Source of the DNA: Arthrobacter globiformis
Lineage (GTDB): Bacteria; Actinomycetota; Actinomycetes; Actinomycetales; Micrococcaceae
Reading direction: 5' to 3'
NCBI RefSeq assembly: GCF_030815865.1
Contig: NZ_JAUSXI010000001.1
Coordinates: 4,836,001-4,900,000 of the forward strand
Length of the DNA stretch: 64,000 bases
Below are positions 31,692 through 59,693 of this stretch, piece after piece (positions within the stretch are counted from its first letter, which is position 1; every line of letters begins with the position of its first letter). The notes below the pieces were generated by a model. The model had not been told where the DNA came from, ran no database searches, and saw only the letters and a program-made list of their open reading frames with translations. The translations under genes were made by a program, and so were the position numbers.

Positions 31692-31720
31692 TTATGACTG
31701 ATATATCAGTGTGAGGTCAA
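31692..31720 (-). promoter_or_regulatory. glyA-sox promoter with TGATATATCA operator
   Basis: On the minus strand TTGACC (31720-31715) and TCATAA (31697-31692) are 17 bases apart. The perfect 14-bp palindrome ACTGATATATCAGT (31697-31710) fills the spacer, an ideal repressor position. The GntR gene starts divergently 98 bases away, with its own TATGAT hexamer at 31733. Related sites lie at 41926, 51884 and 59660. Confidence 0.7.
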
Positions 31721-31807
31721 TGGTATGATTGGGCTCACAACAGAGTCAATAGCAGGAAGCAAAATGACAGTTCGCTTCCGCTTGGAGCCCATGAACGGAG
31801 TCCCGCT

Positions 31808-32479
31808 GTGAATGCTCTTCCCGCCATGCCACCCGCCGAGGACGAGGCGCTGTCCCAAGCCGAGTCTGCGTACCGGCAGCTGCGCGACAAGCTGATCATG
31901 CTGGACATCCGGCCGGGCGAGCCCATCAATGACGGCCAGCTGGCGGCAGAACTCGGCTTTGGGCGTACACCCGTGCGTGAGGCCATCAAGCGGCTGGAGG
32001 TGGACCACCTGGTGGTCTCCTACCCCCGCCGGGGAACATTCGCCACCAGCGTGGACTTCACAGAGCTGGCCGACGTCTCGGAGATCCGGGAGCTGCTTGA
32101 ACCGCTCGCAGCGCGCCGGGCTGCCAAGCGGGCGAACACCGCCATGCGCGAGGAACTTTTGGACGTCGCGAAGGCCATCTCGGAGCTGGCGCCCACCCCC
32201 GCCCAGTCGCGCGAGCTCATGCGCTACGACCTGACGGTGCACCGCCTGATCTACCGCGCGGCGGCCAACCCGCACCTCGAGGACACCCTGATCCGTTATG
32301 ACAACCTGGCCACGCGCATCTGGTGCCTGGTCCTGGACAAGGTCCCCTCGGTGAGCGGCCACATCAGCGAGCACGTAGACCTGCTCAAGGCCGTGGCCGA
32401 GGGGGACGCGGACAAGGCAGGCGAGCTCGCACTGCACCACGTCACGAGCTTCGAGGAGACCATCCGCAAGGTGCTGTAG
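31808..32479 (+). CDS. GntR/FadR-type regulator (copy 1)
   Basis: 223 residues from GTG 31808. N-terminal winged helix (about residues 15-85: AYRQLRDKLIMLDIRPGEPI, GFGRTPVREAIKRLEVDHLV, PRRGTFAT) and an FCD ligand domain (about 90-215) with RYDLTVHRLIY and HISEHVDLLKAV supplying Asp/His metal-ligand positions. Divergent from glyA across the TGATATATCA palindrome, so it is likely the repressor of the sarcosine operon. Close paralog of the regulator at 51128. Confidence 0.9.
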   Translation: MNALPAMPPAEDEALSQAESAYRQLRDKLIMLDIRPGEPINDGQLAAELGFGRTPVREAIKRLEVDHLVVSYPRRGTFATSVDFTELADVSEIRELLEPLAARRAAKRANTAMREELLDVAKAISELAPTPAQSRELMRYDLTVHRLIYRAAANPHLEDTLIRYDNLATRIWCLVLDKVPSVSGHISEHVDLLKAVAEGDADKAGELALHHVTSFEETIRKVL

Positions 32480-32510
32480 GCAGCAGGACATGCGGGAGCG
32501 TTTGGGGAAC

Positions 32511-32545
32511 GAGGAATCCCCCGGGGCTTTCCCGGGGGATTCCTT
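32511..32545 (+). terminator. hairpin terminator after GntR
   Basis: 15-bp stem with one G-U pair (32511-32525 with 32531-32545) around a 5-base loop. It follows the GntR stop by about 30 bases. Confidence 0.6.
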
Positions 32546-57004: not shown

Positions 57005-57249
57005 CCGAGGCAGTCATGGCGCGCAGCACCGCGCCTCAGCCCACCAGCACCAAGGTCGTGGCGGACTGGAACGCGCTCATGCCAGGCGATTTCGTCACCG
57101 TGCTGGAGTCGTACACGGTTCCCCACAGCGGCTGGATCGACGACGTGACCGAGGATGGCCGCATCGTTTGGCTGCTTCTGGCCTTCGGGGGCGGCCGTCG
57201 CATGTTCTTCCGCGAGGACGGCGACATCATCACGGTCGAAGTTCCCTAG
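57001..57249 (+). CDS. 82-residue conserved-context hypothetical protein
   Basis: Starts in an ATGA overlap with folD and ends 47 bases before the formate dehydrogenase ATG, so it is clearly part of the operon. After a 20-residue polar lead, residues 24-82 look like a small beta barrel (PGDFVTVLESY, GWIDDVTEDGRIVWLLL, RRMFFREDGDIITVEV). No Cys or metal motif. Could be a folate- or Mo-enzyme accessory; not recognised. Confidence 0.65.
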   Translation: MTEAVMARSTAPQPTSTKVVADWNALMPGDFVTVLESYTVPHSGWIDDVTEDGRIVWLLLAFGGGRRMFFREDGDIITVEVP

Positions 57250-57296
57250 TCAACGCACGCCCTCATTGCCCGGCAAAAGGATTTAAGGAAGAGCCA

Positions 57297-59663
57297 ATGG
57301 CGTCTAAAGCCCCACGCGAGAACATCGACGAGTCAAAGCTGACCGTCAGCAAGCCCAAAACCAAGGCCGTGGGCATCCCCGCGGTGGCCAACGCCCTGAA
57401 AATCTCGCTGGAGCAGATGGGTCCCCTGCGCAGCGTCCAGACGCTGATGGCCGTCAACCAGATCGACGGGTTTGACTGCATGGGCTGCGCCTGGCCGGAA
57501 CATGAGAAGCGCAATGCGGCCGAATTCTGCGAGAACGGTGCGAAGGCGGTGGCGGAGGAAGCTACCCGCCGCCGTGTCAGCCCGGAGTTTTTCGCCACGC
57601 ATTCCGTCGCCGAGCTGAAGACACGCGATGACTACTGGCTGGGGCAGCAGGGAAGGCTGACCCACCCGATGGTCCTGGATGAGGGCGCAACCCACTACAG
57701 GCCCATCGACTGGGACGACGCCCTGGAGCTCATCGCCCAGGAACTCAGGGACATGGACCACCCCGACCAGAGCGTTTTCTACACTTCCGGACGGACTTCC
57801 AACGAGGCGGCGTTCGTGTACCAGCTGCTCGTCCGCGGCGTGGGCACGAACAACCTCCCGGACTGTTCAAACATGTGCCACGAGTCCTCCGGGTCCGCAC
57901 TGGTGGAGACCATAGGCATTGGCAAGGGTTCTGTCAGCCTGAAGGACCTGGAGACGGCATCCCTCATCTTCGTGGCGGGCCAGAACCCGGGCACGAACCA
58001 CCCGCGCATGCTCAGTGCCCTGGAGAAGGCAAAGAAAAACGGCGCCGCAATCGTATCCGTCAATCCGCTCCCCGAGGCCGGGCTCCTGCACTTCGAGAAC
58101 CCGCAGACCGTCGTGGGAACGCTGGTGGGCACGCAGCTGACTGATGACTTCCTGCAGATCAGGGCCGGCGGCGACCAGGCACTCTTCCAAGGCCTCGGGA
58201 AATACCTGCTGGACGCAGAACGTGCCGGCAGGAACACCCCTGGCCTGTCCACGGTTTTTGACCATGACTTCATCAGCAACCATACGGTGGGCCTCGAGTC
58301 ATACCTTTCGCAGCTGGAACAGGTGCAGTGGGACGACATAGTCGAGGCGACCGGCCTGACCATGGAACAGATCAACGCCACCGGTGAACGGCTCCTGGCG
58401 TCAGGCTCCACCATCGTCTGCTGGGCCATGGGCCTGACGCAGCACAAGCACTCAGTCCCCACCCTGCGCGACGTCGTCAATGTCCTGCTGCTGCAGGGCA
58501 ACATCGGCAAGCCCGGAGCGGGAGTCTGTCCGGTTCGCGGACACTCCAATGTCCAGGGCGACCGGACCATGGGCATCTTCGAACGGATGCCCGAGAGCTT
58601 CCACGACCGGCTGGACCAGGAATTCCAGTTCCATTCGCCGCGGGCGCACGGCTACGACACCGTCGCCGCAATCCGGGCAATGCGTGACGGCAAGGTCAGG
58701 CTGTTCATGGGCATGGGCGGGAACTTCGTGCGGGCGGCTCCGGACTCGGATGCCACCGAGAAGGCCCTTGCCAATACCCGGCTGACCGTGCAGATCTCGA
58801 CGAAACTGAATCATTCGCACCTGTCGACAGGAAAGCGCGCCCTGATCCTCCCAACGCTGGGCCGCACCGAGAGGGACACCCAGCGGTCCGGTGACCAGAG
58901 GGTCACCGTGGAGGATTCCATGAGCGCAGTTCATGCGTCCCGTGGCCGGCTCAAGCCCGCCAGCGAGCACCTGATGTCCGAGGTGGCCATCGTCTGCAAC
59001 CTCGCGCACAGGGTGTTCACGGACGCCAATGGCCAGCCCCGTCCCAACACGCCGGTGGCGGACTGGCTCTCGCTCCGGGACGACTATTCCCTGGTCAGGA
59101 AGCACATCGAGGCCGCCATCGATGGCTTTGAGAATTTCGAGGAGAGAATCCAGCACCCCGGCGGCTTCGTTCTGCCCCACCCGCCACGGGACAACAGGGA
59201 ATTCAAGACCCTGTCGGGCAAGGCGCACTTCACGTCCAATGCCCTGGAGTACCTTCGGGTTCCCCCCGGCCGGCTGATCCTGCAGACCCTGCGTTCCCAC
59301 GACCAGTACAACACCACGATCTACGGAAAGGACGACCGGTACCGTGGAATCCACGGCGGCCGGCGCGTGGTGCTGGTCAGCGAGGCGGACATCGCCGAGC
59401 TGGGCTATGCCGACGGCGACATGGTGGACCTGGTTTCAGAGTTCCGGGGCACAGAACGCAGGGCGGAGAACTTCCGGATCGTGGGCTACTCGACGCCGAA
59501 GGGGTGCGCAGCCGCGTACTACCCGGAAACCAACGTCCTGGTGCCGCTGGACTCCGTGGCCGACACCAGTGGAACCCCAACGTCCAAGTCCGTCGTCGTC
59601 CGGCTGGAACCGGCAGGAGTTAAGGCAGGGGAAAATAAGATGCTTGCAACCCTTCCGCACTGA
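57297..59663 (+). CDS. FdhF/YdeP-type molybdopterin formate dehydrogenase
   Basis: 788 residues from ATG 57297. The open frame runs further upstream in folD's shadow; the chosen start has AAGGAAG nearby. Molybdopterin oxidoreductase: DGFDCMGCAWPE (short CxxC of the Fe-S site), TSGRTSNEAAFVYQLLVRGVGTNNLPDCSNMCHE, WAMGLTQHKH, GNIGKPGAGVCPVRGHSNVQGDRTMG, and a C-terminal molybdopterin-dinucleotide domain. YdeP-group enzymes are formate-dehydrogenase-like but often uncharacterised. fdhD and moeA-like genes downstream support a Mo formate dehydrogenase. Confidence 0.87.
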   Translation: MASKAPRENIDESKLTVSKPKTKAVGIPAVANALKISLEQMGPLRSVQTLMAVNQIDGFDCMGCAWPEHEKRNAAEFCENGAKAVAEEATRRRVSPEFFATHSVAELKTRDDYWLGQQGRLTHPMVLDEGATHYRPIDWDDALELIAQELRDMDHPDQSVFYTSGRTSNEAAFVYQLLVRGVGTNNLPDCSNMCHESSGSALVETIGIGKGSVSLKDLETASLIFVAGQNPGTNHPRMLSALEKAKKNGAAIVSVNPLPEAGLLHFENPQTVVGTLVGTQLTDDFLQIRAGGDQALFQGLGKYLLDAERAGRNTPGLSTVFDHDFISNHTVGLESYLSQLEQVQWDDIVEATGLTMEQINATGERLLASGSTIVCWAMGLTQHKHSVPTLRDVVNVLLLQGNIGKPGAGVCPVRGHSNVQGDRTMGIFERMPESFHDRLDQEFQFHSPRAHGYDTVAAIRAMRDGKVRLFMGMGGNFVRAAPDSDATEKALANTRLTVQISTKLNHSHLSTGKRALILPTLGRTERDTQRSGDQRVTVEDSMSAVHASRGRLKPASEHLMSEVAIVCNLAHRVFTDANGQPRPNTPVADWLSLRDDYSLVRKHIEAAIDGFENFEERIQHPGGFVLPHPPRDNREFKTLSGKAHFTSNALEYLRVPPGRLILQTLRSHDQYNTTIYGKDDRYRGIHGGRRVVLVSEADIAELGYADGDMVDLVSEFRGTERRAENFRIVGYSTPKGCAAAYYPETNVLVPLDSVADTSGTPTSKSVVVRLEPAGVKAGENKMLATLPH

Positions 59664-59693
59664 TATATCTTTACGATATATTTGGAATATCAG
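59660..59693 (+). promoter_or_regulatory. TGATATATC/ATATCAG operator-like region
   Basis: CTGATATATC (59660-59669) overlaps the formate dehydrogenase stop, and GATATATT then AATATCAG (59686-59693) follow, giving CTGATAT and ATATCAG half-sites 20 bases apart. Same half-sites as the GntR operators. Confidence 0.5.

Follow-up and report, generated by a model that had tools for sequence, protein, structure and literature searches.

We analysed a 64,000-nt stretch of the Arthrobacter globiformis genome (hereafter the window), together with the whole genome of 5,110,334 bases in one contig, for a palindromic element, ACTGATATATCAGT, that stands at the sarcosine and dimethylglycine oxidation genes. 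Sequence comparisons indicate with high confidence that ACTGATATATCAGT is the operator of a set of paralogous FCD-type GntR regulators controlling dimethylglycine and sarcosine demethylation and one-carbon (C1) disposal. The site was found before several functional partners, some of them unlinked, was conserved across species and was rare elsewhere, the pattern looked for in a regulon. An earlier, sequence-only reading of the window had proposed that the operator ties several methyl-oxidation units into one regulon; conservation and the gene ties support this link between units, although the "one" may be several overlapping regulons.

We scanned the window with a symmetric 14-bp weight matrix (consensus ACTGATATATCAGT) built from 13 distinct sequences among 78 sites in the 80 named loci described below. 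The four operator sites claimed by the sequence-only reading were all found in their places, with scores of 18.6–26.6, and the fifth-best match scored only 10.9. The four sites are as follows.

31697–31710 (core 31699–31708), no strand: operator ACTGATATATCAGT between glyA-sox and gntR1, matrix score 26.6
41923–41936, no strand: operator GCTTATATATCAGT (CTTATATATCAG at 41924–41935), directly 3′ of the mscR −10 box, score 19.1
51882–51895, no strand: operator GCTGATATATCAAT (core TGATATATCA at 51884–51893) between gntR2 and purU2-dmg, score 20.9
59659–59672, no strand: operator ACTGATATATCTTT (CTGATATATCTT at 59660–59671) over the fdh stop codon, upstream of moeA-fdhD, score 18.6

Random first-order stretches of 400 bp reached a score of 14 in 0.25% of 2000 trials, and the 99th percentile of their best scores was 11.6. 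The core TGATATATCA occurs twice in the window, compared with a mean of 0.00 in 100 dinucleotide shuffles, and CTGATATATCAG with up to two mismatches gave four window matches against 0.38 expected. Two additional half-sites, at 41956 near mscR and 59681 after fdh, had been put forward as extra operators; they scored 10.9 and 9.9 and are thus at chance level when compared with the 99th percentile.

A genome scan, which the sequence-only reading had suggested as a check, returned three exact copies of TGATATATCA (two in the window and one in a second island) and none in the reversed control. Each copy adjoins a gntR paralogue, the third lying upstream of a third GntR gene. When up to two mismatches were allowed in the 12-mer, 43 places were found in the genome versus 30 in the reversed control, so most of these places are chance matches. 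Eleven of the 43 were counted as regulon sites, nine of them in the two islands and two outside (791312, before an MFS gene, and 2854251, before an aminotransferase gene); none of the 80 sampled genomes besides our own had a match to the MFS gene at 791384 at E 1e-110. Sixteen of the other 32 near matches were viewed in context: eight lie inside called genes and eight have no obvious pathway link, as judged from gene starts alone, although three of the latter stand upstream of a called gene with scores of 16.2, 16.8, and 20.7. The last of these, at G000:C1:751532, overlaps the start of a ferredoxin-reductase-like gene and may be either a member or a chance match.

Conservation of the operator and its gene partners

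We compared 81 genomes of the genus (our own and 80 sampled), accepting GntR1 homologues at E values up to 1e-25. The exact core was present 64 times, in 55 genomes, compared with four times in the reversed control, and a GntR1 homologue lay no further than 300 bp from 51 of the 64 copies and no further than 15 kb from 61. Such a homologue was found in 73 of the 81 genomes, including all 55 that carry a core, and no exact core was found in the eight genomes without one. Of the 13 cores more than 300 bp away, nine lie 11.2–12.2 kb from the regulator gene and one lies 6.6 kb away, before folD (L123); the six of the nine that were fetched are all 171–441 bp before a BCCT gene. The remaining three are on contigs without a regulator match: one stands before an aminotransferase operon (L125), one behind an IclR gene on a contig that starts inside an island (L127), and one near a transposase-like gene (L130), which was taken as chance.

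In 80 named loci spanning Arthrobacter to Cryobacterium, a site, defined here and below as a matrix score of at least 14, was present upstream of gntR1 in 80/80 and of glyA in 75/75 cases, counts that are partly circular because these loci trained the matrix. The control is not circular: none of 382 upstream regions of genes without a named match in these loci had a site. After collapse at 80% identity, which left 38 of the 80 loci, the site held 1.73 bits per column compared to 0.25 and 0.37 in its flanks, and the outer ACTG/CAGT of the palindrome were conserved as well. At the level of the order, 62 of 297 genomes had a GntR1 relative at E 1e-55; loci were taken from 30 of these, and 23 of the 30 showed a site before glyA, soxB, folE, or gntR, 16 of them outside the genus. 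In these comparisons, the operator at glyA/gntR1 is conserved in Micrococcaceae and beyond, while its flanks are not. The sequence-only reading had named sites absent or randomly placed in related genomes as the outcome that would overturn it; instead, the site is conserved and tied to the same genes and to regulator homologues.

Twenty further loci (island loci), which were outside the training set of the matrix and were chosen for regulator genes or exact cores, extend the membership. Among the regulators, the site was found at 13/13 gntR4-type genes, 1/1 gntR2, 5/6 gntR3, and 3/3 gntR1 genes; among the pathway genes, at 14/15 purU2, 7/7 glyA, 5/5 pdxS, 2/3 fdh, and 2/3 aminotransferase genes. 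The counts were low for fdhA (3/12), moeA (2/15), and BCCT genes (3/11), and no site was found at gbcA (0/6) or fchA (0/10). An element resembling the fourth window site stood before fdhA or moeA in L124, L134, L136, L137, and L138. In the named loci, purU2 had a site in two of seven upstream regions.

The formaldehyde dehydrogenase gene mscR provides a finer comparison. Its 93 matches fall into 54 close copies (at least 86%) and a second type with 39 copies. Every one of the close copies, the window's included, was examined, and 20 had a site; none of the 27 second-type copies examined had one. Seven genomes carry two close copies (G000, G001, G002, G025, G026, G028, and G035), and in all seven the site is found at exactly one of them; the copies at 42109–43248 in the window and at G000:C1:4910564–4911700 encode essentially identical proteins, with the operator only at the former. 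Of the 53 close copies that were fetched (13 of them placed by hand), 39 share their contig with a regulator gene no more than 100 kb away; 18 of these 39 had a site, versus one of the 14 others. The operator lies 3′ of the −10 box in the window copy and two close relatives (L141 and L142); in the other 17 copies, ACTGATATATCTAT precedes the start codon by about 200 bp and, in the seven printed with context, touches the upstream side of a TTGACA box. Membership of mscR is, by these counts, lineage-specific, and the position of the operator, after the −10 box in one lineage and touching the −35 box in another, suggests that it was gained independently in different lineages.

The aminotransferase–glyoxylate reductase operon had a site in 17 of 23 copies, and one more copy scored 13.2. 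Eighteen of the copies have no regulator gene within 100 kb on their contig, and 15 of these carry the site; of the five that do have one, two carry it. In our own genome, the operon with a site and the nearest regulator gene are 304 kb apart. In many copies, a TATACT-like box lies a few bases past the operator. The sites before this mostly unlinked operon and before mscR support a trans-acting regulon rather than mere autoregulation, as far as sequence can tell.

Regulators, proposed mechanism, and alternatives

Two regulator genes lie beside sites in the window.

31826–32479 (the open reading frame may start at 31808), plus strand: gntR1, GntR regulator with an FCD domain, glyA-linked group (Pfam GntR and FCD; tree)
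51128–51787 (the open reading frame may start at 51835), minus strand: gntR2, GntR regulator with an FCD domain, purU-dmg-linked clade (Pfam GntR and FCD; tree)

This agrees with the sequence-only reading, which had noted two related GntR/FadR-type regulators beside two of the sites, except that the genome holds four paralogues rather than two: two in the window and two in the second island at 2.54 Mb. All four proteins, GntR1 to GntR4, combine an N-terminal GntR winged helix-turn-helix with a C-terminal FCD domain, both above the Pfam gathering score, and the helix-turn-helix is strongly conserved in all of them. The nearest solved structures are GntR proteins (E ∼1e-16). Asp135, His139, His183, and His205 of the FCD pocket are invariant in seven aligned proteins and resemble the metal-site pattern of FCD domains. 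A 64-row tree separates a glyA-linked group, a purU-dmg-linked group (18 rows, 100/100), and an fdh/folD-linked group that is nested inside the glyA-linked group on a long branch, which makes its exact place unsure. Members of all three groups have the same operator, while the genes of many regulators of other families are not preceded by a site. Judging from its conservation, a palindromic operator adjoins the regulator gene.

Promoter boxes are present at mscR (TTGACG-17-TACGAT, operator 1 bp past the −10 box) and at purU2 (TTGACC-17-TACGCT, operator 10 bp past the −10 box), and in both cases the operator follows the −10 box as first described. The sequence-only reading had also placed the glyA operator in a −35/−10 spacer and had given all three promoters a TTGACC/G box with 17-base spacing. 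TTGACC does stand before the glyA operator, but inspection revealed no convincing −10 box 3′ of it; the 17-base spacing was seen at mscR and purU2. On the opposite strand, an extended −10 box (TGGTATGAT) for gntR1, largely conserved in relatives, is 13 bp from the operator, which thus covers the gntR1 −35 region. The fourth site, originally described as following the formate dehydrogenase gene, is indeed at the end of that gene. It shares bases with the fdh stop codon, and the likely moeA start (GTG 59903, placed by inspection) follows about 230 bp later; the site is therefore better assigned to what is probably the moeA-fdhD promoter region than to a promoter of the dehydrogenase itself.

Two further elements were noted in these leaders. 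The gntR1 leader contains a second conserved block at 31730–31755 (approximately GATCACA...GAGTCAA in relatives), 3′ of the −10 box, for which the operator does not account. The likely moeA leader contains a near-perfect long hairpin at 59737–59826 (−55 kcal/mol). A described riboswitch or a tRNA was rejected as its cause, with no Rfam match at the gathering score and no tRNA in the window, and the 13-base start of its stem was not found in the other loci compared.

The FCD-type GntR regulators most likely act as repressors. Each GntR would bind the palindrome as a dimer and, once bound, would block its own promoter and the pathway promoters, an action suggested by the operator positions. A methylated glycine or a C1 product would then enter the FCD pocket and release the GntR from the operator, sarcosine or dimethylglycine being the natural guess for the effector, and release would turn on the serine route at the same time as demethylation, the oxidation of C1 units to formate, and the disposal of formaldehyde. 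We tentatively extend this scheme, with rather less than an even expectation of being right, to three paralogous groups (sarcosine, glyA-sox; dimethylglycine, purU-dmg; formate/formaldehyde, fdh-folD) that retain an almost identical helix-turn-helix and would read one operator, with different intermediates of the pathway sharing one set of switches through competition or mixed dimers.

Several observations weigh against a shared repressor regulon of this kind. The gene gbcA, one step upstream in the pathway, had no site in any of 28 upstream regions and is not counted as a member, and a site was assigned automatically at only 4 of 32 BCCT genes, although three of the six distant cores before BCCT genes fall just past the 350-bp upstream limit used. 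Of the 53 fetched close copies of mscR, 34 have no site, 17 of these within 25 kb of a regulator gene, and in most of the mscR-positive relatives the site is at the upstream edge of the −35 box, where activation is also possible. In our own genome, a second aminotransferase copy, 10 kb from gntR4, has no site. At the order level, 7 of 30 loci are without an assigned site (one unassigned, one scoring 12.5, and five with none). The control was also less clean elsewhere than in the named loci, with sites before 4 of 48 "other" open reading frames in the island loci, three of which use the gntR3 operator and one of which (L137) is unexplained, and before 3 of 153 in our own genome's loci, which were mostly chosen for near matches. 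Finally, ACTGATATATCAGT does not match the operator consensus of the subfamily with its GT...AC boxes (TKGT/ACMA); Suvorova et al. (2015, PMC4494728) name exceptions (NanR and BioR), so the domain-based assignment to the FCD/FadR type stands.

The alternative that fares best, though we think it improbable, is that the proteins are activators or dual regulators, with the same site activating promoters where it lies at or upstream of the −35 box and repressing others. The 17 mscR copies with ACTGATATATCTAT, seven of them shown with the site against the TTGACA box, would fit such a role, and the position of a FadR site is described as deciding between repression and activation (PMC6608401). Yet binding should block polymerase at gntR1, purU2, the window mscR, and the aminotransferase operon, where the site falls on the −35 region, the spacer, or the start region. 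We give about half as much credence to local autoregulation only, by which each GntR would act on the site at its own gene and the other copies would be remnants of duplicated promoters. In its favour, 51 of the 64 exact cores have a regulator gene no more than 300 bp away, and mscR sites are linked to regulator genes (18/39 versus 1/14). Against it stand the sites before mscR (20/54), fdhA/moeA, and BCCT genes and those of the aminotransferase operon, which here is 304 kb away from any regulator gene and has a site in 15 of the 18 copies without a linked regulator; the lineage-dependent position of the mscR operator makes it hard to see how operator and promoter could have been copied together. 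We consider it very improbable that the palindrome belongs to the promoters as an AT-rich element or that an unrelated protein binds it: the sites do fall in promoter regions of a genome with 65% GC, in which AT-rich DNA is rare, but they are missing from all 382 control regions of the named loci and all 27 second-type mscR copies examined, the outer ACTG/CAGT is conserved too, and all 55 genomes with an exact core also have a GntR1 homologue.

Relation to described systems

The predicted GntR regulon has parts that are already known, namely the sarcosine operon and the dimethylglycine oxidase gene. The glyA-soxBDAG-sdaA-purU and dmg clusters of Arthrobacter and Corynebacterium (Meskys 2001 and Suzuki 2005, as cited in PMC3534580) resemble the window in the content and order of the sarcosine operon and in the dimethylglycine oxidase; however, the account in PMC3534580, in its passages on these clusters, covers gene arrangement and pathway and includes no operator or regulator. 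The FadR subfamily (PMC4494728) is similar in joining a GntR winged helix-turn-helix to a FadR-type effector domain, in its AT-rich palindrome, and in pathway genes that adjoin the regulator, but differs in that TGATATATCA is without GT/AC (TKGT...ACMA) boxes and that several paralogous groups appear to use one operator here; neither "sarcosine" nor "Arthrobacter" occurs in the main text of that paper. HypR of Streptomyces coelicolor (PMC6608401) is likewise an actinobacterial GntR-like autorepressor that represses an amino-acid catabolic regulon, although, according to the parts of that report bearing on it, HypR binds CTNTGC(A/C)ATGTCAC and controls hydroxyproline genes. Sarcosine oxidase genes are also regulated in Bacillus thuringiensis, but by Sigma54 and SoxR (PMC4941409), a sigma-54-dependent control for which the title and abstract opening of that paper mention no GntR operator, and the creatine genes of Corynebacterium glutamicum ATCC 14067 illustrate actinobacterial control of a route through sarcosine by AmtR, which is described as a TetR-family nitrogen regulator (PMC8864220).

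No description of the operator, its regulators, or the wider membership was found in the open literature (titles, abstract openings, and passages; subscription papers and RegPrecise were outside the search). Among GntR regulons, the one predicted here is, as judged from these comparisons, set apart by its unusual operator and by how many paralogues would use it. It would supply a testable regulatory code, with named operator and regulators, for the dimethylglycine/sarcosine pathway of a common soil group, and it predicts members beyond those suggested by gene order: moeA-fdhD, fdhA, pdxS, and the aminotransferase–glyoxylate reductase pair. Paralogous regulators on one operator would also offer a natural system in which to study how duplicated transcription factors exploit crosstalk or escape it.

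Genes of the window and of the second island

The pathway genes and their neighbours in the window are listed here by position.

22848–25125, minus strand: end of the sarcosine operon, sdaA serine dehydratase (23752–25125; by NCBIfam) and purU1 formyltetrahydrofolate deformylase (22848–23747; by Pfam Formyl_trans_N and 54% identity to the second-island PurU)
25125–30326, minus strand: tetrameric sarcosine oxidase, soxB 29106–30326, soxD 28707–29078, soxA 25753–28710, and soxG 25125–25760 (soxA above and soxG below the NCBIfam cut-off; soxB and soxD named by operon order and the known cluster)
30323–31663, minus strand: glyA, serine hydroxymethyltransferase, first gene of the sarcosine operon (NCBIfam NF000586, above cut-off)
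42109–43248, plus strand: mscR, S-(hydroxymethyl)mycothiol (formaldehyde) dehydrogenase (NCBIfam TIGR03451, above cut-off)
43245–43865, plus strand: metallo-beta-lactamase-fold hydrolase overlapping mscR (all matches below curated cut-offs)
51930–52844, plus strand: purU2, formyltetrahydrofolate deformylase (TIGR00655, above cut-off)
52899–56129, plus strand: dimethylglycine oxidase with a C-terminal fused methenyltetrahydrofolate cyclohydrolase (FTCD_C) domain (Pfam DAO, FAO_M, GCV_T, and FTCD_C)
56126–57004, plus strand: folD, methylenetetrahydrofolate dehydrogenase (best matches are FolD models, below their curated cut-offs)
57297–59663, plus strand: FdhF/YdeP-family molybdopterin oxidoreductase, likely formate dehydrogenase (TIGR01701, above cut-off)
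59903–62092, plus strand: moeA (putative GTG start at 59903) and fdhD (61199–62092), formate dehydrogenase cofactor insertion (Pfam MoeA_N; FdhD above cut-off)

Beside mscR, at 43956–46271, lie an mshA-like glycosyltransferase gene spread over several frames and an inositol-phosphate-synthase-like gene split in two; both resemble fragmented or incomplete copies of mycothiol genes.

A second set of pathway genes is located at 2.515–2.555 Mb of the same genome (L019 and L020). It includes gbcAB-like betaine demethylase genes (below curated cut-offs), fdhD, moeA, a glutathione-independent formaldehyde dehydrogenase, folE, an FdhF/YdeP-family oxidoreductase, folD, fchA, dimethylglycine oxidase, purU, glyA, soxB, soxD, and soxA, together with two GntR genes. 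In this island, five matches exceed a score of 18: two stand before an MFS gene and fdhA, two at gntR3 and glyA, and one between purU and gntR4. The next best match scores 11.9. The dmg and fchA genes are unfused here (830 and 208 aa), compared with the fusion at 52899–56129 in the window. The soxB, soxA, and BCCT genes of the two islands are 95–99% identical, versus 57–92% for most of the other common genes, a difference that suggests recent copying or gene conversion between the islands.

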